From contig JAILAR010000069.1 in NCBI GenBank assembly GCA_024681515.1, positions 1 to 36,656 of the forward strand: a stretch of DNA of 36,656 nucleotides, given 5' to 3'. Each line of letters starts with the position of its first letter. The stretch's first letter is position 1. Both the position numbers and the translations under genes were made by a program. Below, piece after piece: positions 5,404 to 20,348 of the stretch. The DNA comes from Eubacterium sp. (GTDB taxonomy: Bacteria > Bacillota > Clostridia > Lachnospirales > Lachnospiraceae). The notes under the pieces are model-generated. The model ran no database searches, was not told where the DNA came from, and was given only the letters and a program-made list of their open reading frames with translations.

Positions 5404-6129
5404 ATGGCAGAACAACTTTTCACGATCCCCGTAAATGAAGCTTTTGAAGGCGATTCGGAATGTCCCTTCTGCGAGATGCGGAAGAAGATCGAAGATTCCG
5501 CCATCGAATTCACCCTGGGTCCCAGCTATATGGAGGACGACAACCGGGAAGTCACGGACAAACTGGGCTTCTGTCCCGTGCACATCCGCCGGCTGTACTC
5601 CGAGAAGAACCGTCTCGGGCTGGCATTAATGATGAATACTCACATGAACAAGCTGCTGAAGGATCTGCATGCCGCAGCCGATCAGGGTCCCGGCGAGCGC
5701 GGCGGATTCCTATCAAAAAAGACAGGAGAATCTCCTGTCGTCAAACTGATCCACACTGTGGAAAGCACCTGCTTTGTCTGCCAGCGCATCACTCCGGTCT
5801 TCGACCGCTATGTAGACACCTTCTTCTACCTCTGGAAAAAAGAAAAGGAATTCCGGGGCAAGGTTGCCGGATGCAAGGGGTTCTGTCTGTCCCACTACGG
5901 GAGGCTTTATGAAGAAGGCGTGAAACGTCTCGGAAAATCCGATTTGGATGAACTTCTTGCAGTCCTGAATAAGGTCTTCTTCGAAAACCTGGAGCGGGTC
6001 AACGCGGACACCTCCTGGTTTATCGATAAGTTCGATCACCGGAATGCGGATAAGCCCTGGAATAATTCCCGGGATGCCCTGCCCCGGGCGATCACCAAGG
6101 TGAATTCTGAGATCGTAAGCGAGTCATGA
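5404..6129 (+). CDS. DUF6062 family protein with a duplicated Cys/His metal-site pattern
   Basis: This 241-residue soluble protein matches the DUF6062 type common in Clostridia, for which I know no established function. It has two similar cysteine modules. The first is CPFC (C20, C23) with FCPVH (C57, H60). The second is CFVC (C123, C126) with FCLSH (C161, H164). The spacing between pair members is nearly the same (about 34 residues), which suggests an internal duplication and two C3H metal sites, probably zinc or possibly Fe-S. The ATG at 5404 is preceded by GGAGG with five bases between. It is convergent with the VanZ-like gene (22-base gap) and divergent from the amino-acid transporter. 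Confidence 0.8.
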   Translation: MAEQLFTIPVNEAFEGDSECPFCEMRKKIEDSAIEFTLGPSYMEDDNREVTDKLGFCPVHIRRLYSEKNRLGLALMMNTHMNKLLKDLHAAADQGPGERGGFLSKKTGESPVVKLIHTVESTCFVCQRITPVFDRYVDTFFYLWKKEKEFRGKVAGCKGFCLSHYGRLYEEGVKRLGKSDLDELLAVLNKVFFENLERVNADTSWFIDKFDHRNADKPWNNSRDALPRAITKVNSEIVSES

Positions 6130-6151
6130 AACACTGACGGAGGTGCAGTCG

Positions 6152-6655
6152 TTACTGCTCCGGAGATTCTTCCGAACAAATCTCCTTGCGGCGCTTTCTG
6201 TGCACAAGCGCAAGGATGCCGGCCAGGATCAACAGCCCCGCCAGTGCACCGAGACTGTCAACGCCCACATCAAAGAACGTCCCGGCACGTCCGGGCACAA
6301 AGAGTTGATGGAATTCATCCGTTCCCGCATAGAATACGGCGAAAGCCCAAGCCACCGCATATCTCCGAAATCCCGTGAACGGAAGCGCACCGAACACCAG
6401 CAGCGCAAGCAACGCATATTCCGATGCATGCGCTGCTTTTCTTATGGGATATTCGATCTTGTCCGCCCAGGCTTCCTGCTCGGATTCACTCATCTCATCA
6501 AACCCCGACACAAAGATATGTCCGATCATCCTGCCGACCCATCCGCTGGTTTTCGAGGATTCATCTCCATCCGCTGCCGAAAAGCAGAAGATCACCACCA
6601 TCCACACGATGGCCAGTCCGCCGAATATATAGTTTGCCCTTGTCATCTTCTTCAT
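6152..6655 (-). CDS. VanZ-like membrane protein
   Basis: This 167-residue protein has about four transmembrane segments and the VanZ signature: KAAHASEYALLALL (a helix with the conserved His/Glu), then FAVFYAGTDEFHQLFVPGRAGTFFDVGVD, then a final hydrophobic helix and a basic tail. VanZ-type proteins are linked to low-level teicoplanin resistance in enterococci, but most chromosomal relatives have no assigned role. The ATG at 6653-6655 has a GGAGG 12 bases upstream, a little far; an in-frame ATG three codons on is possible. It lies 60-70 bases downstream of the noncoding RNA terminator, so it is probably transcribed separately. Confidence 0.87.
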   Translation of the reverse strand: MKKMTRANYIFGGLAIVWMVVIFCFSAADGDESSKTSGWVGRMIGHIFVSGFDEMSESEQEAWADKIEYPIRKAAHASEYALLALLVFGALPFTGFRRYAVAWAFAVFYAGTDEFHQLFVPGRAGTFFDVGVDSLGALAGLLILAGILALVHRKRRKEICSEESPEQ

Positions 6656-6721
6656 GCAGCCCGAAAACCTCCGGCTGAGAGCATACCATAATCTCTCGTA
6701 TTAATCAATGACGCGCACGTT

Positions 6722-6760
6722 AAAAAGGAGGATCACCGTTTCAATCGGTCATCCTCCTTA
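6722..6760 (-). terminator. Intrinsic terminator of the large noncoding RNA
   Basis: A 9-bp stem (AAGGAGGAT with its complement), one C-C mismatch and a further 4 bp enclose a 7-base loop. On the minus strand the stem is followed by TTTTTAA. It marks the 3' end of the ncRNA transcript and insulates the VanZ gene. Confidence 0.88.
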
Positions 6761-7325
6761 AAATCTATTATTAAGTTTTTTACGCTTCTCCCACCGGACC
6801 TTCGTCCACGGGCAGGAGTCGCTGTATGTGCTCTTTCGAGCTCTCGCGTCTTCCTTATCATCTACCGCGCGTTCCCGTACCACATGTGATACAAGCACCG
6901 CCATTAGCTGTTTCTACATGATCCATCTATACAGCCATTTCCATTCTTGACGTCTGTAACTACCGGGTTTCCAGGTCGCTTTCTGCGGTATCTGTCGGTT
7001 GCCGCTTCATTGCTATGCTGCTCATCTTGCAAATATGCATAATGCTCATTCTTCGCTCGCTGAAAAGAATCTCGAACTGGCGGGTCTTTTTCATATCATC
7101 TCATAAATGATCTGACGTACCAATTTAAGTATTTCGATTTATATTTCCCTGTACGCTGACCAATCGCCGTTTCCTCCATCTCCGGCCACCGGAGACTGCA
7201 TCCGAAATCGTTTCGGCTACCGCATCTACCTTCCTTTCCTCTTTATTTGCCCCTCCCAGTTGGGGCAGATCCCGCTTCGAATCAACTTCCTATAAATCTG
7301 CGGGAGATATATTTCCCTTGCTTGT
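6722..7325 (-). ncRNA. Large structured noncoding RNA, about 600 nt; candidate ROOL/OLE-class ornate RNA
   Basis: No plausible protein is encoded here. The minus strand has a complete transcription unit: a consensus promoter just upstream, start near 7325, and an intrinsic terminator at 6722-6760. In between, simple helices abound: TCTCCGG/CCGGAGA closing TGG (7179-7195), CCGAAA/TTTCGG closing CGA (7202-7216), ATTCTT/AAGAAT (7065-7070 with 7048-7053), GCTGT/ACAGC (6931-6935 with 6907-6911), GCTC-GAAA-GAGC with a GNRA loop (6830-6841), and GGAC-GAAG-GTCC (6796-6807) nested in an outer CTCC/GGAG pair. Purine-rich joining segments occur throughout. Size, host type and autonomy fit the ROOL RNA class (about 580 nt, Firmicutes) best; OLE (about 600 nt) is an alternative, but its usual neighbours are absent. 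Class membership is inference. RNase P, tmRNA and group II intron landmarks were not found. Confidence 0.75.
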
Positions 7326-7331
7326 AAGTCA

Positions 7332-7360
7332 ATTATACGTCAATTTGCGTGACATGTCAA
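7332..7360 (-). promoter_or_regulatory. Consensus sigma-70 promoter of the large noncoding RNA
   Basis: On the minus strand TTGACA (7355-7360) and TATAAT (7332-7337) are separated by exactly 17 bases, a perfect match to the vegetative promoter. This is the best promoter in the window and implies a strongly expressed RNA starting near 7325. No open reading frame follows it. Confidence 0.9.
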
Positions 7361-7439
7361 CAAAAATATGTTAAATAATCAAATTATTTTTCATGAATTG
7401 CATGAATTGTCAGACATCTTTGACGATTACACCGGATCA

Positions 7440-8078
7440 TTACTTCGTTGTCTTTTTCTTCTCAATGATCAGTTCCCGATCTCCGATCACATCCTCCAGA
7501 ATTCCCCGAAGCAGCTTCTCTGTCTGTTCTTCGGACTTCTGTTTCAGCTCATCCATGTTTGCATTTGCAGTGACATCACCCTCTGCTGCCTGGATGGCCT
7601 CGGCCACATCCTGCTTGTCACTCCAGTTAAAGATCGCATAACTCTGATCATAGAAATCGATGGAATTCGGATCCACGTGCACCGACTGGATTTCCGTTTC
7701 CGGCAGGGTTATGACCACGTTCTTGCTGTTCACATCCACCTGGATCTTGGAGAAATCGATACCGGCTTTCACGGTCGCGTTGTACTTCATCGTAAATCCC
7801 TTTTTTGTCAGCCAGGGGATGGAACCGTCCTCGAAACGCACGATCCCGGTATAATTCAGTTCCGCCGTTGTAAGATCACTGGCCACTTCCATCTTTCCGG
7901 TGATATATTCCGCGGTGATCGTCGGTTCCTTTTTTCCGAAGAGAAATGTCTTCAGCCAGACGCCCACCATGATCAGCAGGACCACAACCGCGATCAGAAT
8001 GACGGTCCTGGTCATCTGATTCAGACTTGCCCACCACATACTGCGCCGGCTGGCGCGCTCCATGCGATCACCTTTCAT
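7440..8078 (-). CDS. DUF4230 membrane-anchored protein
   Basis: This 212-residue protein has a short basic N-terminus, one transmembrane helix (about residues 23-42) and an extracytoplasmic DUF4230 domain. The domain is recognisable in ELNYTGIVRFEDG, the beta-rich middle with VVITLPETEIQSVHVDP, and the helical C-terminus with AEGDVTANANMDEL and EKLLRGILEDVIGD. The biochemical role of DUF4230 is not established. The ATG at 8076-8078 has AGGAGG six bases upstream; the upstream in-frame codons are in the leader cassette. It is the last gene of the first MoxR operon, after the transglutaminase gene, so an envelope role with those proteins is likely by context. Confidence 0.8.
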   Translation of the reverse strand: MKGDRMERASRRSMWWASLNQMTRTVILIAVVVLLIMVGVWLKTFLFGKKEPTITAEYITGKMEVASDLTTAELNYTGIVRFEDGSIPWLTKKGFTMKYNATVKAGIDFSKIQVDVNSKNVVITLPETEIQSVHVDPNSIDFYDQSYAIFNWSDKQDVAEAIQAAEGDVTANANMDELKQKSEEQTEKLLRGILEDVIGDRELIIEKKKTTK

Positions 8079-8090
8079 CTCACTCCTCCT

Positions 8091-8121
8091 ATTCCACACT
8101 TCGCGCCTAAGGCGCTCCGTG
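8091..8121 (-). repeat. Leader cassette copy 1 (hairpin plus Shine-Dalgarno tail)
   Basis: Read on the minus strand: ACGGAGCGCC, a short loop, GGCGCGAAGTGTGGAATAGG, then the GAGG of the DUF4230 ribosome binding site. It fills the gap between the transglutaminase stop and the DUF4230 start. Confidence 0.75.
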
Positions 8122-8124
8122 CAA

Positions 8125-10674
8125 TTACTGCTTCGCTATTCTCTGTAATAGTTCATCCAGTCTCTGCTTCGCTATATTGAAATCTTCTTCGGAAATGCTT
8201 TCCTTTGCAAATCCTGCATGTTCCAGCATGCGGATCAGCTCTTCCAGGGTCGCCGAATCCACACGGTTCCCGTCCTGTTTGATCGGTTCCCGGTATTCCA
8301 TCCACTGCGTATCCGCTGCTCCTGCCTCGCGTCTCCGGTCATACAGACATTCCATCTGTTCCCGGTAATTCACACATTTGGAAAGCTCCGGATCCCGACG
8401 GCGTCGATGCATCGCCCTGCTGTAATACAGAACGAGCCGCTCTGACCAACTACCCTTCCGGTAGTTCACATGATACCGGTATACCGGTCTCAGTTTAAAT
8501 CTAAGGAAGATCAGGCCTCCCAACGCAAACAGCCCGAATGCAGAGAAGATGATGATCCGAACCACCTTGTCATTGATGGCGATCCGGAACCCACCGCCGC
8601 CGTCTCCACTGTCAGCCGCGTTGTCCTCATCACCGTCACCGAACCATTTATTAAAGTTTTCCCAGAAGGACGTTGTCCCGTCATCCTCATCTATGGTGGA
8701 GGACGGCGTTACCTCGACTACCTTCCAGCCCTTCCCTTCGATATAGATCTCCACCCAGGCATGGGCATTGGCGTCAGAAGCCTTCACCGTGATCAGTGCC
8801 GTACGTCCGAGCGCACTGTAACCGGAATAATACTGATCGTATTTTGCCTCACCGTCAGCCACCAGTTCTCCTCGGGTCAGCACCTGTTCATAGGAAATGG
8901 CATAGCCCTCGCAGTATCTTGCCGGAATGCCGATGGACCGGAATGCAAGGACCGCAGCACTGGCAAAATGCGCACAGTAACCCTTCTTGTTCTTTGTCAG
9001 GAAATAATTGATGAAGTCCTGTCTTCTCGGTGTTGCACCCGGACGGATGGTATAAGGCACATTTGCCTCATAGTACTCCGCCAGCCGCGCCACATTTTCC
9101 TCCGGCGTCAGCTTCTCAGACATGCCCGCATCCAGTACCAGGCCGTTTATGGCCGCCTGATTCGCGGGATCCACGGTGAGATATCCCGAATCGATGGCCG
9201 ATGGTTCCTCCAGTTGAAGAAGATCATCATCCGTCAAAGGATAGTATACCACTTCCTGGCTCTTTCCGCGATATAATTCTCCCTGTTCTTCATCAGAATA
9301 ATACGGGTGATAGGTCTGGGGCGCCGCTTCGATATTCTGAAGGATCATCACGCCGCGCGCTGCCTTCTCATCTCCGTCCTCATATGCCTGCCGAAGGGCT
9401 TCCGTCTCGCGAAGATTCTGTCCTTCCGGTGTCTTATAATCCTCCGGCTGCGACCAGTAATTCTCGCCCGGATGATAGTCCCTGCCGATCAGGTTCTTAA
9501 TGTACAGTGTATCATAACTATATGGCGTAAATGTGACCGACAGATCCGGCATATAATCCAGACGGATGGAATTCACTCCACCCAGCTCACCGCTGGCCAG
9601 ACCGCCGTTATTTGGATACCAGTTCCAAAGTGCGGAGAAGCCCAGCATGATCATGTTCTGAACATATTCCCGGGTCGCCTCCTTGTATGGGTTTTCCTCC
9701 CGGGAGTAGATATAGGTATCCTTGGGGTGGATCACATTCACGACTCCCGCGATCAGCACCACCAGCCCAAGCGTCACCAGCATACCCTGGCGAAGGGATT
9801 TGTGATCCAGCCCGTAGGAGATGCCCCATTTTCGGCGTTTGAAAATGTGATCGTTCCGGCTCAGGGTAAAATGCCGTCCGCATTTCAGAACAAAGGTCAT
9901 GCAGACACCGGAGATCACCATAAGAGAATACAGCAGCTCCGGCTCCTTCTCCATGTACAGCGCTATGAGATTGATGGTGATACCGAGGAACGCCGCGATC
10001 ATATATCGCGCACGGCGGAGGATATAATTGTTCAGCAGTATATTTGCCGCAATTCCGATCAGCGTCACTGCCACCGTCACTGCCACATAACGATTTGCGA
10101 TACGCTCGTTGTAATGCTGCAGACCTTCCGCATCGAAATAAATGGAGGCCCATTCATTTGTCTCATTGACGATGGCGTAGAACCCACTGTTGATATAGTC
10201 CCGGAACAGATACAGAGTCCCCGCATACACACCGAAGAAGACCAGATATCCCAGGTTCTCGGATTTCCAGCTGTGATAGAGGCATGCACAGAGCAGCGCC
10301 GTGATAAGGATCACCGCATGGAAGATCAGCCGTGAAAATTCGATTTCCATGGCCGTAAGATAACTTCCGAGACCGCCCGCCGTGATCAGATACACGATAA
10401 AGCCCTTGATCAGAAGTGTCCAGTACCGGTTCTCACCGATCTGATAAACGGACTGATCGATGGTCACCCCCTTGCAAATGGGGATCTCCCGAAGGTCCTC
10501 GTCCACCCACGCCGAACGCCGGATCCTTTTCTTCTCCGCCTTCGCCGCCTTCTTCTCCTCCTGTGTCAGAGGAACGTTTGGTGTGCCCGCTGCCTTCCCG
10601 CGTCTGCCGGTCACTCTTCCCGCTGCATTATCTGCCGTATTCAGTTGGTTAGTCCTGCTCGACAACCTCGGCAT
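8125..10674 (-). CDS. Membrane transglutaminase-like protein (TgpA type)
   Basis: An 849-residue protein with a basic cytoplasmic N-terminus, a cluster of about seven membrane helices (residues 85-315), a long extracytoplasmic region with the transglutaminase-like fold, another membrane helix (about 705-725) and a cytoplasmic tail. The catalytic cysteine is in GYCAHFAS (about C567) and the histidine in NAHAWVE (about H638). The third position, usually Asp in a VDPT motif, reads VEVT, so it seems to be Glu. MoxR-DUF58-TgpA operons are widespread and thought to act on envelope proteins. I chose the ATG at 10672-10674 because GGAG precedes it; an ATG 12 bases upstream is possible. The start overlaps the DUF58 gene by 26 bases. 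Confidence 0.88.
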   Translation of the reverse strand: MPRLSSRTNQLNTADNAAGRVTGRRGKAAGTPNVPLTQEEKKAAKAEKKRIRRSAWVDEDLREIPICKGVTIDQSVYQIGENRYWTLLIKGFIVYLITAGGLGSYLTAMEIEFSRLIFHAVILITALLCACLYHSWKSENLGYLVFFGVYAGTLYLFRDYINSGFYAIVNETNEWASIYFDAEGLQHYNERIANRYVAVTVAVTLIGIAANILLNNYILRRARYMIAAFLGITINLIALYMEKEPELLYSLMVISGVCMTFVLKCGRHFTLSRNDHIFKRRKWGISYGLDHKSLRQGMLVTLGLVVLIAGVVNVIHPKDTYIYSREENPYKEATREYVQNMIMLGFSALWNWYPNNGGLASGELGGVNSIRLDYMPDLSVTFTPYSYDTLYIKNLIGRDYHPGENYWSQPEDYKTPEGQNLRETEALRQAYEDGDEKAARGVMILQNIEAAPQTYHPYYSDEEQGELYRGKSQEVVYYPLTDDDLLQLEEPSAIDSGYLTVDPANQAAINGLVLDAGMSEKLTPEENVARLAEYYEANVPYTIRPGATPRRQDFINYFLTKNKKGYCAHFASAAVLAFRSIGIPARYCEGYAISYEQVLTRGELVADGEAKYDQYYSGYSALGRTALITVKASDANAHAWVEIYIEGKGWKVVEVTPSSTIDEDDGTTSFWENFNKWFGDGDEDNAADSGDGGGGFRIAINDKVVRIIIFSAFGLFALGGLIFLRFKLRPVYRYHVNYRKGSWSERLVLYYSRAMHRRRRDPELSKCVNYREQMECLYDRRREAGAADTQWMEYREPIKQDGNRVDSATLEELIRMLEHAGFAKESISEEDFNIAKQRLDELLQRIAKQ

Positions 10675-11689
10675 CTGCTTCTCCATTTCTGTTGCAAATA
10701 TGAACGTAGGCCTTCAGCTCGGGATGAATGCTCCGCATCAGTTCCCGTGTCTTGTCCCGATTCTCGTAAACTTTGTCGTAATAAAGGTCGGCATAGGCCA
10801 GGCGGAGGGCTTCCCGGCTCACGATCTGCCGCTCTTCAAAGGCAAACCGACCCTCACTCCACCACATCAGCCGGACATATACCTGCTCATCCACAAAGGA
10901 TTCGCAGACTCCGTAGGTCAGAGACAGGATCTCGTCCACCTGCTCGTCCTCACCGGAAAGCTCCGTCAGGATCACCATTTGCTGATCCGACATGGAGACC
11001 CGGTCCTTCACCATCAGAATGTCTCTCTTTGCAGAGAGCTTCCAGTGGATCGACATCAGTTTGTCCCCCGGAATGTACTCCCGGACATCCGATACATCCG
11101 AGAAATCGTGACCGCGTTTCATGGTCTCCTCGCTCTCCGTCATACCCTGGGACATATCGGACAGATTGCCTTTTTTCGTCACATCCCCGTGGGGATAGAT
11201 CACCACCTCGGTCGTGGTCTGTGATTTTTTTGAGAGAGATACGATCCCCAGCAGATCCCGCATGGTAAAGCCGTCCATCTGGTAGCGGTACAGGCCGTTC
11301 ATGGAGTATTTGATCGGGATCATCTGCTCGTAGGTGGAATGCATCTGAATGGGTACGGAGATCCGGGTGGTACCGGAATCCTGAAAGAAACAGTTCTCGG
11401 TCCGAAGGATCAGATTTGCGTCAAAAGAGAAAAGCCAGCTGCGGTTCACCACCCGAAGCCGGAGGTACCCCGGTTCGTCCCGGTACTGCTCCCGTTCCGG
11501 CGCCATAATCGTCACTTCCACAAACCGCCGCAATATGAATACCGCTCCGATGGACAGGAAAGGAACCACCGAAAGAATGATAAAGAGCATCAGAAAGAAA
11601 TGGCTCCGAAGGAACCAGAAAAGAAAGGTCACAAGCGCGTACTGGACCAGGTATGCAATGATTCTTGTTGTGTGGATCCGGGTTTTCAA
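10649..11689 (-). CDS. DUF58 domain protein (first MoxR operon)
   Basis: This roughly 346-residue protein has two N-terminal membrane helices (about residues 10-55), a beta-rich middle and the DUF58 core with VREYIPGDKLMSIHWKLSAKRD and a following hydrophobic strand. DUF58 proteins have a VWA-like fold and accompany MoxR ATPases. The likely start is TTG at 11687-11689 because AAGGAGA lies about seven bases before it; an upstream in-frame GTG (11711-11713) has no site. Its 3' end overlaps the transglutaminase start, suggesting coupled translation. A cloverleaf-like element separates it from moxR. Confidence 0.86.
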   Translation of the reverse strand: MKTRIHTTRIIAYLVQYALVTFLFWFLRSHFFLMLFIILSVVPFLSIGAVFILRRFVEVTIMAPEREQYRDEPGYLRLRVVNRSWLFSFDANLILRTENCFFQDSGTTRISVPIQMHSTYEQMIPIKYSMNGLYRYQMDGFTMRDLLGIVSLSKKSQTTTEVVIYPHGDVTKKGNLSDMSQGMTESEETMKRGHDFSDVSDVREYIPGDKLMSIHWKLSAKRDILMVKDRVSMSDQQMVILTELSGEDEQVDEILSLTYGVCESFVDEQVYVRLMWWSEGRFAFEERQIVSREALRLAYADLYYDKVYENRDKTRELMRSIHPELKAYVHICNRNGEADAEVVEQD

Positions 11690-11732
11690 TCGGGGGTCTC
11701 CTTGTAATTCCACAATGATCTGTTCATATCAT

Positions 11733-11866
11733 ATGAGCCATGCTGCCCTCTCCGATTGCTACGCAATCGTCGAGGTCACGGCATTCGCCGTATAGTCCTG
11801 CGCTGACAACGCTTTGTTCGTGAGCAAGCTCACACAAAGCGTGTCGCGCAGTCCTGCATGGCTCAT
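11733..11866 (-). other. Cloverleaf-like inverted-repeat element between moxR and the DUF58 gene
   Basis: An 11-bp closing pair (11733-11743 with 11856-11866, ATGAGCCATGC and its complement) encloses three hairpins: GATTGC/GCAATC (11754-11768), CGGC/GCCG (11779-11790), and a long, nearly perfect stem of about 18 bp at 11798-11851 with GTGAGC/GCTCAC at its tip. The closing strand starts at the moxR stop codon. It could be a stabilising 3' structure, a processing site that sets the MoxR to DUF58 ratio, or a small nonautonomous mobile element. Confidence 0.7.
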
Positions 11867-12807
11867 TACTCGCGCAAACTTCGCGGTGCAGGTACCATTT
11901 CCAGAAGGGTGCGGATGGCGCCGTCCATGTTCACGCCCTGAGCGCGGGTCCGCTGTCCCAGCTTCACCCTGTGTCCCAGGGTCTCACGGGTAACTGCCTG
12001 CACGTCCTCTGCCGTGACAAAATTCCGCCCGGCGATCACTGCCATGGCCTTTGCCATTTTCAGGATTGCTATGGTTCCGCGGGGGCTGGCCCCCATGGAG
12101 AAAAGATCACTGGTACGAGTTGTTTCAACCAGATTTACGATATACTCATAGATCACATCATGAACGTAGAGATCATTGGACTCCTGCCGGAGCGCCTTCA
12201 GCTCCTCCACGCCCAGCACCGCTTCCACCGTATTGATGGGATTTAATGCATTTCCCTTCAGGATCTTCACCGCATCCTCATGCTCCGGATATCCCATGGA
12301 AAGACATACCATGAACCGGTCCAGCTGGGACTCCGGAAGCAGCTGGGTACCCGAAGAACCGTAAGGATTTTCCGTTGCGATCACGACGAAAGGATCCGGA
12401 AGCCGGCGGGTCACGCCGTCCACCGTAGCCGTTCCCTCTTCCATGACCTCCAGCAGCGCGGACTGGGTCTTCGGAGACGTACGGTTGATCTCATCCGCCA
12501 GGAACAGATTACAGAAGACCGAACCTGCACGGTACTCAAATTCCTTGGTAGCGCTGTTGTACATGGAGAAGCCCAGGATATCACTGGGCAGTACGTCCGG
12601 TGTAAACTGCACGCGCTTGTAATCCAGGGACAGTGCCCTTGCAAAGGCCGTTGCCAGCGTGGTCTTTCCGACACCGGGGATATCCTCCATCAGGATATGT
12701 CCCCCTGCGATCACCGCCGCCAGAACCTTCCGGACGACATGCTCCTTACCCTTGATCACCTTATTTACATTGTCCTGCACCAGCTGGATCTTTTGTACGT
12801 CTGCCAT
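11866..12807 (-). CDS. MoxR-family AAA+ ATPase (first operon)
   Basis: This 313-residue protein has the MoxR layout: Walker A in PGVGKTT (about 44-50), Walker B in LFLADEINR, the conserved RTSPKTQSALLEVMEE helix, sensor 1 in IATENP, the arginine-finger region QLDRF, and a C-terminal lid with SMGASPRGTIAILKMAKA and a GHRVKL motif. MoxR ATPases are thought to be chaperones that mature or assemble partner VWA-type proteins. The ATG at 12805-12807 has GAGG seven bases upstream; an upstream in-frame ATG has none. It is first in the operon with DUF58, transglutaminase and DUF4230 genes. A promoter candidate lies at 12970-12999. Confidence 0.93.
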   Translation of the reverse strand: MADVQKIQLVQDNVNKVIKGKEHVVRKVLAAVIAGGHILMEDIPGVGKTTLATAFARALSLDYKRVQFTPDVLPSDILGFSMYNSATKEFEYRAGSVFCNLFLADEINRTSPKTQSALLEVMEEGTATVDGVTRRLPDPFVVIATENPYGSSGTQLLPESQLDRFMVCLSMGYPEHEDAVKILKGNALNPINTVEAVLGVEELKALRQESNDLYVHDVIYEYIVNLVETTRTSDLFSMGASPRGTIAILKMAKAMAVIAGRNFVTAEDVQAVTRETLGHRVKLGQRTRAQGVNMDGAIRTLLEMVPAPRSLRE

Positions 12808-12969
12808 ACGATTCCTCATTTCTTTCTGTTTCGCAATTGATTTCGTTGGGTGTGTACCAACTCATGTTTGAGATTTTCCTGTATTTTTGCAACAGGCTAT
12901 ACAAAGTTATTGTATCATTTCTCCACCGATTCCGCATTATAATTATTCTTAACACACCCTGCTGTTTGT

Positions 12970-12999
12970 ATTATATCGAAAAAAAGAGTTTTCTGACAA
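12970..12999 (-). promoter_or_regulatory. Candidate promoter of the first MoxR operon
   Basis: On the minus strand TTGTCA (12994-12999) is followed after 18 bases by TATAAT (12970-12975). It would give a leader of about 155 bases. The interval from here to the moxR start holds no other gene that I can support. Confidence 0.55.
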
Positions 13000-13010
13000 A
13001 TGCTTAATTC

Positions 13011-13042
13011 GAATATCGTGATATTCAAGAACGGAATATCAC
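13011..13042. promoter_or_regulatory. Overlapping dyads upstream of the pyk promoter
   Basis: GAATATC (13011-13017) can pair with GATATTC (13020-13026), and GTGATATTC (13018-13026) can pair with GAATATCAC (13034-13042). The middle arm is shared, so this may be a double operator. It lies 45 bases upstream of the pyk -35 and just outside the divergent moxR -35. Confidence 0.4.
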
Positions 13043-13086
13043 TCTGTCATGGCACGAGACAATCTTCCTTAAGGCCTCCGCTTTCC

Positions 13087-13115
13087 TTGAAAAAACCTTC
13101 CCCACATGGTATAGT
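13087..13115 (+). promoter_or_regulatory. pyk promoter
   Basis: TTGAAA (13087-13092) and TATAGT (13110-13115) are 17 bases apart. The start codon is about 60 bases downstream of the expected transcription start. Confidence 0.75.
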
Positions 13116-13179
13116 GGAGGCATGTCAGATAATCCCACGGAGCGCTTTAGATGCGAACGTGAAACAAGGAGGATATCCT

Positions 13180-14601
13180 ATGCGTAAAACGAAAGTCATC
13201 GCAACCATCGGTCCCGCCAGCGAAAATGAAGAGACCTTTACGGCCCTCTGCCGCGCCGGCCTGAACGTGGCGCGTCTGAATTTTTCTCACGGTACCCACG
13301 AGGAACATAAAAAGAAGATCGATCTGATCAGGAAAGTTCGGAGCAAGCTCTGCCTGCCCATCGCCATCATGCTGGACACCAAGGGCCCGGAGTACCGGAT
13401 CAAAACCTTTGAAAACCATAAAGTAGAGATCGGCGAAGGCGATACCTTCACCTTCACCACCGAAGACATCGTCGGCAATCAGGAACGGGTATCCGTAAGC
13501 TACGAGCATCTGATCGAGGATCTGTCCGTCGGCGACAGGATCCTGGTGAATAACGGCCTGGTGATCTTTGAGGTCACGGAGCTGCGCGGCAGGGATGCCG
13601 TCTGCAAATGTCTCTCCGGCGGTGTACTCTCCGACCGGAAGAGCATGAATTTCCCGAACAAGGTCCTGAAACAGGTTTTCCTCAGTGAGCAGGACAAATC
13701 CGATCTGCTCTTCGGTATCGAGCAGGGGGTTGAGTATGTGGCAGCCTCCTTTGTATCCTGCAAGGATGACGTGGCATCCCTCCGTGAGTTCCTGAACGAA
13801 CACGGCGGCCGGGACATCGACATCATCGCAAAGATTGAAAACCGCTCCGGTGTGGACAATATCGATGAGATCTGCGAGATCGCCGACGGCATCATGATCG
13901 CCCGCGGCGACCTGGGCGTGGAGATCCCGGCAGTGGAGGTTCCCGCCATCCAGAAGCACCTCATCACCAAGTGCCGCATGCTGGGCACCCGTGTCATCAC
14001 TGCCACGGAAATGCTGGAATCCATGATCGAGAAGCCGCGTCCCACCCGTGCAGAGGTATCCGACGTGGCCAACGCCGTATACGACGGAACCTCCGCAGTC
14101 ATGTTGTCCGGCGAAACCGCTTCCGGCAAGTATCCCGTGGAAGCGCTCCGCACCATGATACAGACCGTGGAGGCCACCGAAGCCACCATCCACTACACGA
14201 AACGTTTCAAAGCTCTGGACGTGGAGATCCGCAACAATCTGGATGCGGTGTCCCACTCCACCTGCTCCATGGCCATCGATGTAAATGCAAAATGCATCAT
14301 CGTCAATTCTCTGTCCGGCCGTACTGCCCGCATGGTCAGCCGTTTCCGCTGCCCGGTGGACATTATCGGCATGACCACCTCCGAGAAGGTCTGGAGAAAG
14401 CTGAACCTCTCCTGGGGCGTGACTCCGATGCTCTGCGGCATTTACGATTCCATGGAATCCATGTTCTCCAACGCGGTTCGTGAAGCCACCCGTGTTCTGG
14501 GCCTGAAACCTGGGGACAATGTCGTACTGACAGGCGGTATCATGGACGGTCACAGCGGAAATACAAACATCATCAAGGTGGAGTGCATCGAGGAGTCATA
14601 G
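13180..14601 (+). CDS. pyk: Pyruvate kinase
   Basis: This 473-residue enzyme transfers phosphate from phosphoenolpyruvate to ADP, the last step of glycolysis. It starts MRKTKVIATIGPASEN and has the substrate and metal motifs LNFSHGT, MLDTKGPE, IAKIENRSGVDN with the active lysine, IMIARGDLGVEIP, and TRAEVSDVANAVYDGTSAVM followed by LSGETASGKYP. The position after GPE is Tyr (GPEYR) where most homologues have Ile. The C-terminal allosteric domain is present, but there is no extra PEP-utiliser domain as in Bacillus and some Clostridia. The frame is open upstream, but the ATG at 13180 has AAGGAGG seven bases before it. It is monocistronic, with its own promoter and terminator. Confidence 0.97.
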   Translation: MRKTKVIATIGPASENEETFTALCRAGLNVARLNFSHGTHEEHKKKIDLIRKVRSKLCLPIAIMLDTKGPEYRIKTFENHKVEIGEGDTFTFTTEDIVGNQERVSVSYEHLIEDLSVGDRILVNNGLVIFEVTELRGRDAVCKCLSGGVLSDRKSMNFPNKVLKQVFLSEQDKSDLLFGIEQGVEYVAASFVSCKDDVASLREFLNEHGGRDIDIIAKIENRSGVDNIDEICEIADGIMIARGDLGVEIPAVEVPAIQKHLITKCRMLGTRVITATEMLESMIEKPRPTRAEVSDVANAVYDGTSAVMLSGETASGKYPVEALRTMIQTVEATEATIHYTKRFKALDVEIRNNLDAVSHSTCSMAIDVNAKCIIVNSLSGRTARMVSRFRCPVDIIGMTTSEKVWRKLNLSWGVTPMLCGIYDSMESMFSNAVREATRVLGLKPGDNVVLTGGIMDGHSGNTNIIKVECIEES

Positions 14602-14649
14602 CCGCATCGAGCAGGATCGGCAGCATCCCGTCATCTCGCCTGTGTATAA

Positions 14650-14697
14650 GAAAACCCGGAACGTGTGGCAGTAATATGACACATGTCCCGGGTTTTA
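14650..14697 (+). terminator. pyk terminator
   Basis: A long hairpin with AAAACCCGG and CCCGGGTTTT at its base and a paired GTGT/ACAC segment nearer the loop is followed by TTTTATATT. It lies 50 bases after the pyk stop and could also stop minus-strand transcription from the Bat operon. Confidence 0.8.
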
Positions 14698-14762
14698 TAT
14701 TAATACCTGTTCCATTTTCACCTTTATGCAACCGGTGCAGACCGATCACCGGTGCTTTTTGA

Positions 14763-15656
14763 TCACCAGTTCTTCCCGTTGGAGTTTTGTCCGCCGCCTC
14801 CGCCCTGCTGCTGATCTCCGCTTGCATCCCACTGGGACTGCTGCTTCTGCTGTTCCTCAGCGCGTTCCTGAAGGGCTTCCTTCTGCTGCTCTTCCAGCTG
14901 CTCGCGGATCTTCTTCTCCTGCTCGGTTTCCTTATTCTGATCCTGATCCTGGTTCTGATCCTGATCTTTGTTCTGATCCTGGTTCTGATCCTGATTGTCC
15001 TGGTCATCCCCGTCCTGCTGATCCTGATCCGGCGGATTCTCCAGCTTATCGATCATATCGTCGATATCTTTCTTTAACTGCTCTGCCTCTTCGCTGTGGC
15101 CGTCATCCTCCACAGGACCTGCACACTGATGGGCCGTCAGAACCGTTCTGGCCGCACGGAGCTGCTGGATCGCATTCTGAACCTTCTTCTCCGTACTCAG
15201 ATCATTAAAGTCGATCTTCTTGATCATAGCCAGCGCCAGATTGATCCGGATCGGACATTCCTTATACTTGGGCGGATCCATATCCAGTGCCTGTTTATAG
15301 TACCCGATGGCACGGGAGTAATCGCCTTCCTTATAGGCCACATTTCCGAGATTATAGTAAGGCAGATACCGTTCCACAAGATTCAGCTTCTTCAGGCTCT
15401 CCTCCTGCTCCGTCTGGTAATCTCCGCCTTCATACGCCTTGACGAATTTCCGGTTCATCATGTATCGGATCCCGATGTACAAACCGAAAGCCAGAAGGAA
15501 AAGAACCAGCACATCCATCCAGAACATGAACATTCTGGGATTCTTCAGCCGAAAACGTTTTTTCTTTTTTCCGCCGGCCTTCCCCGTCTCTTCTTTTGTT
15601 TCCGTTATTACGGTGATTTCCTTTTTCTCAGTTTTTTTGTCCGTATTCTTACTCAT
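14763..15656 (-). CDS. TPR-containing membrane protein, BatC-like
   Basis: This 297-residue protein has a charged N-terminus, one membrane helix (about residues 43-66), TPR-type repeats (YLPYYNLGNVAYKEGDYSRAIGYYKQAL split around 98-125), and a C-terminal low-complexity region rich in Asp, Asn, Gln and Glu, ending in a Gly/Gln/Asn tail. The TPR-plus-acidic-tail form and its place after two VWA genes match BatC of Bat (aerotolerance) operons, whose function is still unclear. The start is the ATG at 15654-15656, with a purine-rich GGAAGG upstream. It is the last gene of the second MoxR operon. Confidence 0.78.
   Translation of the reverse strand: MSKNTDKKTEKKEITVITETKEETGKAGGKKKKRFRLKNPRMFMFWMDVLVLFLLAFGLYIGIRYMMNRKFVKAYEGGDYQTEQEESLKKLNLVERYLPYYNLGNVAYKEGDYSRAIGYYKQALDMDPPKYKECPIRINLALAMIKKIDFNDLSTEKKVQNAIQQLRAARTVLTAHQCAGPVEDDGHSEEAEQLKKDIDDMIDKLENPPDQDQQDGDDQDNQDQNQDQNKDQDQNQDQDQNKETEQEKKIREQLEEQQKEALQERAEEQQKQQSQWDASGDQQQGGGGGQNSNGKNW
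14930..15035 (-). repeat. In-gene short tandem repeat coding for Gln-Asp-Gln-Asn units
   Basis: Twelve-base units resembling CAGGATCAGAAC repeat imperfectly within the BatC-like gene and encode the QDQN-rich spacer. This is a slippage-prone coding repeat. It has no spacers and is not a CRISPR array. Confidence 0.8.
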
Positions 15657-15717
15657 AGAAAGGCACCTTCCTTTCCCGGGGGTTCTCCCGTATTTGCCGC
15701 CTTTTCCACAGTTTCTG

Positions 15718-16683
15718 TTACAGTCTCCGCTCCAGCAGAAGTCCGATCAGTTCCCAGATCAGAAGCGCTGCCAGAACCGCACCGAGATAGAACGTGATAT
15801 CCTCATAGGTGATCATTTCCGCTTCTTCCATGCGGATACTGCTGCCGCTCTTGATGGCATCCATCATGTAGCTGACCTCGGACGCATCCCGCACATTCAG
15901 ATATTCCACCTGAAAATCCTTTGCGATCTTCTGCAGATTCTCTTCATTGAGCGTGGAAACCGCATCCGTATTATTCTCCCGGTCCTGCACATATTTCCGG
16001 GAATAGCCGTTATCCGCCTGCATCTTCCCGCCTTGTTTGGTACCGAAACCAAGCACGGCACCGCCGTCCACATACTGCTCCAGCTCCGCAAAACTACCGA
16101 GCTGGGATCCGTCCGTGATTTCTCCGTCGCTGATGAAGAAGATGATGGTCTTCCTCTCCTCTTTCTTGGACGAAGAAATGAGAAGATCCTTTATTTCATC
16201 GTAGGGCACATTCAGGTTACTGCCCGTAGCATAATAGATATCCGGCTGCTTAATGGTGGAAAAAGCATCCGACACACTGCGTGCATCCTGGGTAAAGGGT
16301 GCCAGGATCTGCGCTCGGTTATCAAATCGGATCAATGCGAAATTACTTCCTGCGAGCTCCTGCAAAATATAATCGCAGGTTTCCTGCACACCGTCCATGC
16401 GCGTCTTGCCGTTCCCATAGTCCTCCGCCCACATACTGATGGTGGAGTCCACAACGAACAGCACGTCGATATTCTTCAGCTCGATCTCGGCATTATACCG
16501 CTTCACGGAGGGCCGAAGATTGAGAAGAAATACCAGTGTCAGGATCAGGATCAACCTGGCCGTGGACAGGATCTTCTTCCATACCTTATCCTTCCGCCGG
16601 AAAACCGTAATCAGCAGCAGGATCAGCACGACCGACAGTACAGGAACCACGATGTAATTGGAAAGTACCGGATTCGTAATCAT
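15718..16683 (-). CDS. VWA-domain membrane protein, BatA/BatB-like (second of pair)
   Basis: This 321-residue protein has two N-terminal helices (about 8-26 and 40-58), an extracytoplasmic von Willebrand A domain and a C-terminal helix (about 295-315). The metal-ion-dependent adhesion site is visible as DSTIS near residue 80, a threonine/glycine segment ATGSN, and SDGE after a hydrophobic strand. The first motif has Thr in place of the middle Ser, which is a tolerated variant. Its ATG overlaps the stop of the preceding VWA gene by four bases (ATGA), so the two are translationally coupled and probably act as a pair. Confidence 0.88.
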   Translation of the reverse strand: MITNPVLSNYIVVPVLSVVLILLLITVFRRKDKVWKKILSTARLILILTLVFLLNLRPSVKRYNAEIELKNIDVLFVVDSTISMWAEDYGNGKTRMDGVQETCDYILQELAGSNFALIRFDNRAQILAPFTQDARSVSDAFSTIKQPDIYYATGSNLNVPYDEIKDLLISSSKKEERKTIIFFISDGEITDGSQLGSFAELEQYVDGGAVLGFGTKQGGKMQADNGYSRKYVQDRENNTDAVSTLNEENLQKIAKDFQVEYLNVRDASEVSYMMDAIKSGSSIRMEEAEMITYEDITFYLGAVLAALLIWELIGLLLERRL

Positions 16684-17753
16684 GACCGTATAATCACTCC
16701 TGCTCCAAAACCAAGTGTCATCATTACCAGAAGGGCGATCACAAAGCCCTCAGGCTGATCGATCTCCTTCGTAATGATCAGTTCATCCACTTCCAGCGCT
16801 TCCTGGCGCTGGATGTCCGCCACGATATCCTCCACCGTCAGCGATCTTGACTGCTGATAGAAGGTACCGCCGGTGCGCTCTACATCCGACTGAAACTGCT
16901 TTAAATCTGAAGAGTAGTCGCTGTAATTTCCCTTGTTGTAGGTCTCCTGATCCGGGAACAGACCGAAGATCTTGATGTGATTCTTGATGGCTAAATCCGT
17001 CGCCTCATCGATCTCAATCAGCGGCTTGGACAGCTCCATCTGGGCATTATCCGTCGCCATGATGATAAGGCGGGTCCGATCCTCCGCCAGCCGCGGGAAG
17101 CTGTAAACACAGCTTGCCAGACCTTCACCGATCAGAGAACTTCCCTTGGTATAGTTGTTGACCAGCGTACCCGCATCGTAATACTGCAGGGTCTCCATCA
17201 TTTTCATGTAATCATCATCCATATTGAAACTGTAATCATTGTCCTGATAGATCTGCTGCAGGCGGAAATACTCCTTCAGCTCGTCCAGCTTCTGCCGGAT
17301 GAAATCATAGTCATCCGTCATGGGCACGTACAGCACCGAAGAGGTGTTGAAGATCAGGATACCGAACCGGTCTCCCTTCAGCCCTGCCACCACTTCCTCC
17401 AGACTGTCCACCAGGTCATAGTTCAGGTAGCAGATGGAGTAGGAAACATCCATGCAGAGGAAGATGTCGCGCTTCTTCACACCGTTGCTGGTGGTTTCCG
17501 TCCGATAAGGACGCGCTGCCAGGATCAGGGACATCACCAGACTCCCCACCAGGCAAGCCTCCAGAACAATGGCCAGCACCCGGCGCAGCTTCTTCTGTCC
17601 GATATAATCCGGGAGTTCCCGGAAGAACTTCGTATTTGCCACTCTCATCCCGCCATGATATTTCTTCTTTCTCCAGAAGAAATGCATCGCAAAAAGCCCT
17701 GCTATCAGCACGGGGATTCCGATGTATAGGAAGAGTGGGTATTTCAACTCCAT
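16680..17753 (-). CDS. VWA-domain membrane protein, BatA/BatB-like (first of pair)
   Basis: This 357-residue protein has an N-terminal helix (about 7-25), a second helix (about 60-80), a VWA domain and a C-terminal helix. The adhesion-site motif is DVSYS near residue 101, with a TKGSS segment further on; the third motif reads TDN rather than TDG. The insertion YDFIRQKLDELKEYF to DDDYMKMMETLQYYD, absent from short VWA domains, is rich in Tyr and Asp. The start overlaps the 3' end of the small membrane-protein gene by 10 bases. It belongs to the MoxR/Bat operon. Confidence 0.88.
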   Translation of the reverse strand: MELKYPLFLYIGIPVLIAGLFAMHFFWRKKKYHGGMRVANTKFFRELPDYIGQKKLRRVLAIVLEACLVGSLVMSLILAARPYRTETTSNGVKKRDIFLCMDVSYSICYLNYDLVDSLEEVVAGLKGDRFGILIFNTSSVLYVPMTDDYDFIRQKLDELKEYFRLQQIYQDNDYSFNMDDDYMKMMETLQYYDAGTLVNNYTKGSSLIGEGLASCVYSFPRLAEDRTRLIIMATDNAQMELSKPLIEIDEATDLAIKNHIKIFGLFPDQETYNKGNYSDYSSDLKQFQSDVERTGGTFYQQSRSLTVEDIVADIQRQEALEVDELIITKEIDQPEGFVIALLVMMTLGFGAGVIIRS

Positions 17754-18229
17754 AACTCGATCGCCTTTCTGGTCCGAAACAGAGATGCCCGGATGTCCGC
17801 CATGGACTGCCGTGCAAATTCCGGCTCATAATACTCCTGTACCAAAGCTGTCAGCCCGGGGATCCCGACACGCCGGATCTCCTGCAGCGAATAATTCTGC
17901 ACCTTGATCCCGGTCGCATCCGTTACAAATGTACGGATCAGCATGGACAGCTCCTGATATGCATTTCGCTTGGTATATGCTCCCGCCATGATCCCCCGTT
18001 CCAGGTGATCCAGCCGCTGCAGATACTCCCATTTCAGAACCGCCAGCGGTTTCTTCTTCGGAGGACGAACCTTCGGCTGACGCTTCTCCCGTTTCTTCTT
18101 AAGCTGATCGCGAAGCAGGATCCGGAAGAAAATCTGTATGAAAAAAACAGCCGCCACGGCGACGATCGCCAGAATCAACCATAACAGATAATATGACATT
18201 GGATCCTGTAAATCTACTGAGGTCTGCAT
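17744..18229 (-). CDS. Small membrane protein of a MoxR/Bat operon (DUF4381-like position)
   Basis: This 161-residue protein has one N-terminal membrane helix (about residues 12-38), a very basic stretch of Lys/Arg and a helical cytoplasmic domain. Its position between the DUF58 and first VWA genes, and its size and topology, match the DUF4381-type proteins of such operons, but the similarity is by layout more than by firm motif. The ATG at 18227-18229 has AAAGGAG seven bases upstream, located in the end of the DUF58 gene, whose stop is only two bases away. It overlaps the next gene by ten bases. Confidence 0.75.
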   Translation of the reverse strand: MQTSVDLQDPMSYYLLWLILAIVAVAAVFFIQIFFRILLRDQLKKKREKRQPKVRPPKKKPLAVLKWEYLQRLDHLERGIMAGAYTKRNAYQELSMLIRTFVTDATGIKVQNYSLQEIRRVGIPGLTALVQEYYEPEFARQSMADIRASLFRTRKAIELWS

Positions 18230-18231
18230 GT

Positions 18232-19098
18232 CTATACTCCTTTATGCTCCTCGATCAGTTCCGCGATCTTGTCGATCACTTCTTCTTCCTTCCGGATCTC
18301 CGTCTGCGTTATCTCATACCGCTTACAGATCGTCAGGAAATCCTCCCGCCTCTTTCTGCGCTCCCGCCGCTCCAGTTGCGCCAGTCGCTTCGACTGCTGC
18401 AGGAAATCCGGCTCATAATCCTGTTTCTCCACATCGTACGCGTTATCTCCGGTCAGGTACGCATCGGATATCGTGAGGAACAGCACATCGCTCTGCACCG
18501 TCAGCTTTTTCAGCAGACGCTCATCCACATGAGACGCTCCCTCCATATCCGTGATGACGAAGATCAGCATTCTTCTCCGGAAATGATCCGCCACATAATC
18601 CAGGATATCTCCGATATTTTTATCCGTCGGTTTTCCCACGGTGGTTTCATACCGATGGACGATACGCTCAAAATGCACCTCTCCGGACTTGAAGAAACTG
18701 AAATCGATCCCCGCACCGCGGTTCATCATCATGGCGAAATCATCGCCATGCCGGTTGGCCAGATACGCCAGAGAACCCAGAGCCAGCACCGCCAGCTTCT
18801 CCTTCGGCTCACCTGCCTCCGTGTCGGCGATCATTTTCAGACCGGAATCTCCCACCAGGAGGATGTTGTGTTTCCGCTCCGCGATGTACCGGCGCACCAG
18901 AGTCTTCCCCGTTTTGGAGGAGGATTTCCAGTCGATGTCCCGGACATTATCTCCGTAGGTATACTCCCGGAGGTCATCAAAATCAAGGCTCCGCCCGCGA
19001 AATATCGAGCGGAAGCCTCCATCCAGCAGATTTGCAGTTTTCTTCTTCGAATACAGGGTAAGATTTGCCCTGATCCGGGAGAGATAATCGTAATCCAT
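18232..19098 (-). CDS. DUF58 domain protein (second MoxR operon)
   Basis: This 288-residue soluble protein has the DUF58 signature GRSLDFDDLREYTYGDNVRDIDWKSSSK (about residues 35-62), followed by the VWA-like strand NILLVGDSGLKM and the later strand MLIFVITDMEG. Unlike the first DUF58 protein, it has no membrane helices. The long charged C-terminus (about 230-288) is probably a coiled coil. It follows moxR after a 257-base gap and leads the tightly packed Bat genes. Confidence 0.88.
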   Translation of the reverse strand: MDYDYLSRIRANLTLYSKKKTANLLDGGFRSIFRGRSLDFDDLREYTYGDNVRDIDWKSSSKTGKTLVRRYIAERKHNILLVGDSGLKMIADTEAGEPKEKLAVLALGSLAYLANRHGDDFAMMMNRGAGIDFSFFKSGEVHFERIVHRYETTVGKPTDKNIGDILDYVADHFRRRMLIFVITDMEGASHVDERLLKKLTVQSDVLFLTISDAYLTGDNAYDVEKQDYEPDFLQQSKRLAQLERRERRKRREDFLTICKRYEITQTEIRKEEEVIDKIAELIEEHKGV

Positions 19099-19286
19099 AC
19101 CAGTTATACTCTTTAATGCTCTCTTATGCTCTTCATGCCATCCACAAAGCCGCCGCTCCGTATGTAATTATCCTTCCATCCTCACGACTCCTGCCATTCG
19201 GATAAATGCGAGTCATCTGACCCAGGTATATTTCATATACGAAACAAATACGCGATTTTATGGTAATGTCGCAAAATCAAACCGAT

Positions 19287-19391
19287 CATTGTATCCAAAT
19301 GATTTCACAAATCCTGTCAACCATAGTATCCTGATGATTTCATGGATCCTGTCGATCAGGGAGTCCGAATGCTTCCGAAAATCTTGTCGAT
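19287..19391 (-). repeat. Three degenerate 35-bp tandem units spanning the end of the second moxR gene
   Basis: Units with an exact 35-base period are anchored by CCTGTC at 19313 and 19348 and CTTGTC at 19383 on the plus strand. The third contains the last codons of moxR and its stop; the other two lie in the gap before the DUF58 gene. The outer two are about 80 percent alike, and the coding one is more diverged. The rest of the 257-base gap (19099-19286) shows nothing I can name. Confidence 0.75.
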
Positions 19392-20348
19392 GATGGTCTC
19401 AACGGATACATCATCCGCAATGGCCGCATAGTTCAGCTCCACTCTGTGACGCAGCACCTGATAACGCAGCGCCTTCACATCATCCGGCGTAACGTAGGTA
19501 CGGCCATACAGAAGAGCAACCGCCTTGGCGATCTTCAGGAATGCGATGGACGCACGTGGGCTGGCACCCATACGTACGTAGCACGCCAGTTCCTCCGGCA
19601 GGACCTGATCCGCATGGCGGGTCGCATCCACCAGATAGGAAATGTATTTCTTAATGGCCGGATCCACATAGACCTTCTCGGTGATCGCCTGCAGACGGTC
19701 CACATCCTGAATGGACAGAACCGCAGGGGTCCGCTCCATGGCTCCGCTTTCGATACGGTTCAGGATCTCGGTCTCCTCCTCCGGTGACGGATAGGTGATC
19801 TTCTCCTTGATCAGGAAACGGTCTGTCTGTGCCTCGGACAGCAGGTAGGTACCTTCCTGCTCGATGGGGTTCTGGGTCGCGATGACGATGAACACATCCT
19901 CCGGCATCTGATAGGTCACACCGCCGATGGTGACATGGCGTTCCTGCATGGCCTCCAGCATGGCACTCTGCGTCTTGGCACTGGAACGGTTGATCTCGTC
20001 CAGCAGCACGAAGTTCGCAAATACAGGACCCAGGATCGTCTCAAACCGTCCCGAGGACTGGTTGTAGATCTGGGTACCGATAATATCGCTGGGGAGCAAG
20101 TCCGGCGTACACTGGATCCGGGAGAACTTCCCGGCAACGGCGTCGGAAATGGCTTTGGCAGCCGTCGTCTTGGCAAGTCCCGGCACGGATTCCACCAGAA
20201 TGTGCCCATCTGCCATAACAGCTGCCACCAGCGCAAATTTCATCATTCTCTGACCTACGACCTTGGAGTCGTAGTAATTCGACAGCTTCCCGATGATCTC
20301 CTGGGACTGGTCGAACTCTTCCTGTAAAATGTGATTCTCCTGTTCCAA
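19356..20348 (-). CDS. MoxR-family AAA+ ATPase (second, Bat-type operon)
   Basis: This 330-residue MoxR ATPase has Walker A in VPGLAKTT (about 55-62, the usual LAKT form for this branch), the TPDLLPSDIIGTQIYN segment, Walker B in FVLLDEINRSSAKTQ, sensor 1 IATQNP, the arginine finger in TDRF and the C-terminal RMGASPRASIAFLKIAKA helix with VLRHRVELNY. It is the canonical partner of DUF58 and VWA proteins. The start is TTG at 20346-20348, with AAAGGAG about seven bases upstream. It is first in the operon running to 14763. It differs enough from the first MoxR that a recent duplication is unlikely. Confidence 0.93.
   Translation of the reverse strand: MEQENHILQEEFDQSQEIIGKLSNYYDSKVVGQRMMKFALVAAVMADGHILVESVPGLAKTTAAKAISDAVAGKFSRIQCTPDLLPSDIIGTQIYNQSSGRFETILGPVFANFVLLDEINRSSAKTQSAMLEAMQERHVTIGGVTYQMPEDVFIVIATQNPIEQEGTYLLSEAQTDRFLIKEKITYPSPEEETEILNRIESGAMERTPAVLSIQDVDRLQAITEKVYVDPAIKKYISYLVDATRHADQVLPEELACYVRMGASPRASIAFLKIAKAVALLYGRTYVTPDDVKALRYQVLRHRVELNYAAIADDVSVETIIDKIFGSIRTP

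Follow-up and report, generated by a model that had tools for sequence, protein, structure and literature searches.

A candidate stand-alone long structured RNA gene, found so far in one clade of a Lachnospiraceae genus

Long structured RNAs are few in bacteria, and several of them are without known function. Among these, ROOL forms an octameric RNA cage and is carried by phages and prophages, often near tRNA islands, while OLE is accompanied by an adjacent gene for its partner protein, OapA; a 2017 survey reportedly arrived at 224 candidate RNAs. In the accessible portion of PMC12286853, ROOL is represented by a 659-nt example with a complex fold, a rumen source and no known protein partner, the raiA RNA is a monomer, and the HEARO RNA is bound by IsrB. 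OLE, according to the available part of its source, is an RNA of about 600 nt with conserved blocks that occurs in Gram-positive, often anaerobic bacteria (PMC9723947), and an excerpt on Ligilactobacillus salivarius describes a long abundant RNA that is encoded on a megaplasmid, forms its own transcript and is reported to be specific to one species (PMC5643018). The literature that was searched held no description of the RNA considered here; the passage that a term search brought up in PMC11109978 mentions neither Lachnospiraceae nor VanZ nor DUF4230, and PMC8632094 had none of the searched terms.

The present locus lies on the minus strand of a 36,656-nucleotide stretch from Eubacterium sp. 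(contig JAILAR010000069.1), referred to as the window. The RNA gene is placed at 6722..7325 (about 604 nt), with a predicted, unmapped start assumed to lie about 7 nt past the -10 box. It shares with ROOL, as far as the accessible text describes the latter (PMC12286853), a length class, a complex fold (predicted here) and a rumen source; in contrast to ROOL, it gave no model match, was not found in the phage, plasmid and viral-contig collections, has no tRNA in the window and occupies one chromosomal place within a clade. The likeness to OLE consists of a length of about 600 nt with conserved blocks and a protein gene downstream (PMC9723947, in part), whereas the OLE model, which had no positive control, did not match and the VanZ-like gene 3' of the RNA is not constant. 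The L. salivarius RNA is likewise a stand-alone long RNA of narrow range (PMC5643018, in part), but it resides on a megaplasmid, and the model that finds it misses the present RNA. The raiA and HEARO RNAs are also long structured bacterial RNAs, from which the present one differs in having no Rfam match and in being flanked by genes that Pfam assigns to DUF4230 and VanZ-like proteins.

A sigma-A type promoter, TTGACA-17-TATAAT, occupies 7332..7360 of the minus strand (TTGACA 7360-7355, a 17-nt spacer, TATAAT 7337-7332); identified by a promoter scan and by comparison among copies, it scores 12/12 against the consensus and is the sole perfect one among the four promoter-like sites listed in 6000-8000. 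The terminator (6722..6757, minus strand) consists of a hairpin at 6757-6727 followed by TTTTT to 6722, which was read from the sequence and is also present in the predicted fold; a consensus terminator scanner run over 6000-8000 did not list it, presumably because of a G-G mismatch inside the stem. Between these signals, 7326-6716 folds at -188.3 kcal/mol compared with -155.5 +/- 5.7 in shuffles (z -5.73, from only 20 shuffles), and GAAA-type loops can be seen by eye, for example in CCTGGAAACCCGG and GCTCGAAAGAGC. No open reading frame of at least 50 aa lies inside 6722-7360. The perfect promoter, the intrinsic terminator, the dense series of hairpins and the protein-free character that the first-pass annotation had described were all upheld, and the observation of a promoter, a strongly folding stretch and a terminator at minus 7360-6722 is confirmed. 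The stretch is very probably an RNA gene and is presumably transcribed.

Thirteen of the 61 genus genomes searched carry the RNA, comprising 11 in which the core is sequenced and two in which it is cut by contig ends. By route, ten carriers were recovered by both the DNA search and the covariance model R1 (core, eight sequences), one (G060) by the model, one (G010, cut) by DNA, and one (G019) by a promoter at a contig end. The DNA search gave a match at E <=0.01 in 13 genomes, from which G041 (27 bases; by eye no core and no promoter) and G014 (23 bases) were dropped, and R1 matched 12 of the 61 genomes at E <=1, of which inspection of the sequence eliminated G046 and a second match in G072. 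Absence from the non-carriers is based on these DNA and R1 searches; a one-strand motif scan of 17 DUF4230 loci was not relied on. The carriers are exactly the 13 genomes with a DUF4230 protein at least 58% identical to that of the window (the next best is 53%), which indicates that the RNA follows one clade. Two of the 13 carrier assemblies break at or inside the RNA gene (G010:C240 and G019:C159/C161), perhaps by chance.

Beyond the genus, R1 found the window's own genome alone among 397 genomes of the family, under strict filters that left 9-12 first-look candidates to be scored per genome. Under the same kind of filters (again 9-12 candidates per genome), model R2 found the window's genome and nine weak matches among 392 genomes of the order. 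These nine matches, with E of 0.003-0.04 per genome, were taken as chance, being fewer than the roughly 20 that chance would give at 0.05 over 392 genomes; the three of them for which open reading frames were listed all lie inside a long one. Since R1 gave three divergent members of the genus E values of only 3e-7 to 0.02, still more distant copies could be missed. In a collection of genome contigs, a core-motif pattern matched 10 stretches, all in records of Lachnospiraceae, Clostridiales or 'Eubacterium sp.' and all titled as MAG or uncultured except Lachnospiraceae bacterium AC2029; three titles name goat omasum, sheep rumen or deer rumen, in agreement with the gut-type Clostridia host proposed earlier, and we take the RUG series and AC2029 to be of rumen origin as well. 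Combined, the searches describe a family that no Rfam 15 model matches and whose range, within the genomes searched, appears to be a single clade of a Lachnospiraceae genus.

Comparison among the copies points to one chromosomal place 3' of a DUF4230 gene, a sigma-A type promoter of the RNA's own, a covarying terminator stem, a nearly constant 3' core and a middle arm that some copies lack. The RNA ranges from about 360 to 640 nt, and the end-to-end alignment takes in the eight closer copies. From the 5' end, two hairpins (7248..7305, minus strand, as are all features below) keep their stems in the closer relatives with partly different letters, such as CCCGC/GCGGG versus CTGCAG/CTGCAG, and are followed by a conserved block, GGAAAGGAAGGTAGAT (7224..7239), in which most columns are invariant over nine aligned rows. 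The variable middle arm (approximately 7003..7205) measures about 200 nt in the window and is absent from two RNAs of about 360-370 nt, L024 and L027. Within the 3' core (6866..6978) lies a near-invariant motif of 28-29 nt, GCTGTATAG-(3-4 nt)-ATCAYGTAGAAACAGC (6935-6907), which is found in all 11 sequenced cores; in G020, G053 and G060 it is nearly unchanged (one base shorter, with one further change in one copy), and the DUF4230 proteins of these genomes are just 58-64% identical to that of the window. A penultimate hairpin, CTCCTGCC...GGTGGGAG (6787..6818), shows compensatory changes between relatives. Ten of the 11 copies carry CCCGAGA as the terminator loop; the exception is the window, with ATTGAAA at 6745-6739. 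A simple terminator scan covering the window plus 10 relative loci returned 11 hairpins, five of them the RNAs' own and six with other loops. A pairing partner for CCCGAGA inside the RNA was sought across the copies and none is common to all; five copies contain a GTTTCGG/TTTCGG match, which sits in a hairpin absent from L024 and L027.

The eight-copy alignment folds 8.5 standard deviations better than 60 column shuffles (z -8.5) that preserved gap pattern and conservation class, though not dinucleotides; four relatives folded singly gave weaker values than the window (z -2.39, -1.75, -1.89 and -2.44). In the terminator stem, 11 of the 12 pairs have changed on either side, and paired cells make up 90.9% of the total. 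Its covariation score of 0.682, compared with 0.314 +/- 0.041, was reached by none of 500 shuffles and is sharply peaked at slide 0, and its number of further pair types was reached by three of 500. The covariation among homologues called for in the first-pass annotation is thus present in the terminator and penultimate hairpins, whose compensatory changes are those expected of a structured non-coding RNA. The core shows almost no covariation because its 11 closely related sequences hardly vary, so that its pairing is predicted and not proven.

The promoter region is itself conserved. The copies contribute 12 complete promoters and 11 terminators of their own, and the complete promoters have in common TTGAC[AG]TGTC-N3-CAAWW together with a TATAAT-like -10. 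A search of 18 genomes with this pattern, allowing up to two mismatches, recovered the 12 RNA loci present there in full and a single further position, in G053. An upstream site, TGTCTGACAA (7407..7416; consensus [AT]GTC-W-GACAA, also given as [AT]G[TA]C[TA]GACAA), is present in 13 of 13 promoters, with one mismatch in L026. A second site, TGTCACGCAAAT (7343..7354), lies directly 3' of the -35 box within the -35/-10 spacer, and its TGTCRNRCAAWW sequence occurs in 12 of 12 complete promoters. The spacing from the upstream to the second site is 62 bp in 11 of the 13 loci and 61 bp in the other two. Across the 13 carrier genomes, the exact twin-site pattern matched RNA loci only, but just 6 of the 13, and the backward control of the pattern gave one match. 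As both sites read TGTC-N3-CAA, they appear to be one operator in direct repeat, and the combination of a site in the spacer with an auxiliary site suggests a looping repressor, which is the simplest reading, with an activator as the alternative. A dedicated putative DNA-binding protein would occupy the two TGTC-N3-CAA sites 61-62 bp apart and, if it represses by looping, would make the RNA inducible.

The upstream neighbour is a gene for a DUF4230 protein (7440..8099, minus strand), which ends about 60-170 bp from the RNA promoter in 13 of 13 carriers and closes an operon-like run of MoxR-type AAA ATPase, DUF58, transglutaminase and DUF4230 genes; no relative of this protein was found in viral contigs. 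Farther upstream, at 10649-20348 of the same strand, two MoxR/DUF58-type clusters were seen, one with VWA-domain proteins and the other continuing into transglutaminase and DUF4230 genes. Downstream, as the first-pass annotation had noted, lies a gene for a VanZ-like protein (6152..6655, minus strand). The same annotation had described a locus free of phage and tRNA neighbours, and the tRNA half of this holds throughout the window, while prophage genes were examined solely by Pfam on the 26 window proteins. The RNA had no match in viral contigs, phages or plasmids, and a phage or plasmid origin was rejected. Repetitive palindromic intergenic elements stand just 3' of the RNA in several relatives (L025 5710-5880, L043 1110-1200, L127 1-60, L032 after 5540), and one such element is a sub-threshold Clostridiales-1 RNA match (L044 1845-1958, 30 bits against the 48 needed).

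Overall, the best explanation is probably a stand-alone, clade-restricted long structured non-coding RNA of about 360-640 nt that acts in trans as a folded object under its own putative regulator. With less assurance, the RNA may scaffold either a ribonucleoprotein or an assembly of RNA alone, making contacts through the near-invariant core and the conserved terminator loop, and would act neither by antisense pairing nor as the leader of a neighbouring gene. The scaffold mechanism in particular falls a little short of even odds. Assembly into a particle is more tentative, as is the fuller proposal that the RNA represents a new large ornate class of one Lachnospiraceae clade in which core and terminator loop would assemble a particle, either with protein or of RNA only, and a dedicated looping regulator would trigger expression. 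Against the best explanation stand the scarce core covariation, the modest z of single relatives, the close relatedness of the 11 cores, the lack of a loop-pairing partner common to the copies, and the window's departure from the conserved loop.

Four other explanations were weighed against this one. That the RNA is a divergent member of ROOL, OLE, GOLLD, RNase P or 6S RNA is very improbable, although its size, dense folding and ruminant Clostridia host resemble the ROOL env-120 RNA from cow rumen in the accessible part of PMC12286853. Scans with the Rfam 15 library (4227 families) were run at the gathering cut-off and at E up to 10; no family matched the window at the former, and the latter gave eight weak matches at the locus and, across the 11 copies, 16. 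These weak matches were confined to unrelated families, and no family came up repeatedly within the RNA. Neither the locus nor any of the 11 copies matched ROOL (RF03087) or OLE (RF01071) at E up to 10, and run genome-wide neither model hit any of the 13 carrier genomes, the 14 built-in control genomes being silent in both. The positive control, which covers the ROOL model and not OLE, recognised the L. salivarius pMP118 region, that of the long RNA, as ROOL at 130.4 bits. GOLLD and RNase P both have models in Rfam and were not among the matches of the 4227 families in the window, the locus or the 11 copies. A separate 6S RNA scores above cut-off elsewhere in the window's genome, and the 6S model matched 55 of the 61 genus genomes; among the 13 carriers it matched 11 and gave no hit in G010 or G060. 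With no tRNA in the window and no phage, plasmid or viral-contig match either, membership in these five classes was rejected. The first-pass assignment to ROOL first and OLE second is therefore not sustained, and its proposal of an autonomous structured RNA or new class survives, through conservation, covariation in the varying hairpins, promoter and terminator, without the kinship to ROOL or OLE. Least credible of all is a messenger for a small conserved protein. Short open reading frames and a Shine-Dalgarno-like GGAAAGGAAGG block are present, and a start reading MQSPVAGDG (once MQSSVAGDG) is common to six of eight rows, but this stretch overlaps a conserved hairpin, has differing ends and is absent from L024 and L027. 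Of the 13 short frames listed, 12 (all but one 26-aa plus-strand frame) were compared with the seven aligned relatives, and none retained both its start codon and an uninterrupted frame throughout; a conserved frame in relatives, named at first pass as evidence against an RNA, did not appear among them, and a small-protein gene was rejected.

A cis-acting leader of the VanZ gene, in which the terminator would work as the switch of a riboswitch or attenuator, accords with the position of VanZ 3' of the RNA in nine of the 11 copies, among them the window, with the terminator in between. However, the intact RNA is followed in G020 by a gene for a 165-aa protein without Pfam family and in G060 by a class II tRNA-synthetase gene with threonyl-type domains, with VanZ on other contigs in both genomes, so that the RNA does not always lie 5' of the gene it would regulate and is not its leader. 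Relatives of VanZ are also present in 55 of the 61 genus genomes, including 43 non-carriers, and VanZ probably has a start signal of its own, since by eye a TG-N-TAnnnT extended -10-like element precedes it in 8 of 9 copies (window 6655-6700, L023, L025-L028, L030 and L032; not L024). This explanation was rejected as improbable. The distance from the -10-like element to the VanZ ATG is 6-8 nt in L026, L027, L028, L030 and L032, as if the mRNA were leaderless. An unlikely but better-placed alternative is a long sRNA that regulates in trans by base pairing, using CCCGAGA or other C-rich loops as seeds against mRNAs: 10 of 11 copies have an identical terminator loop on a stem that drifts, and the promoter looks regulated, yet the window's own loop is different and the most conserved part of the RNA is a long core and not a short seed.

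Read as a stand-alone structured RNA, the family is tractable, offering deletion variants that occur in nature, a fixed position on the chromosome, a short-form copy of about 370 nt in the named strain Lachnospiraceae bacterium AC2029, and a conserved, apparently regulated promoter. Such a family provides a route to the function of long structured RNAs and to the cues that activate them. If the new-class reading is true, the natural short forms of about 360-370 nt would show which domains are dispensable, and a range that proves this narrow would show that a single genus can be the setting in which large structured RNA genes arise, or survive.
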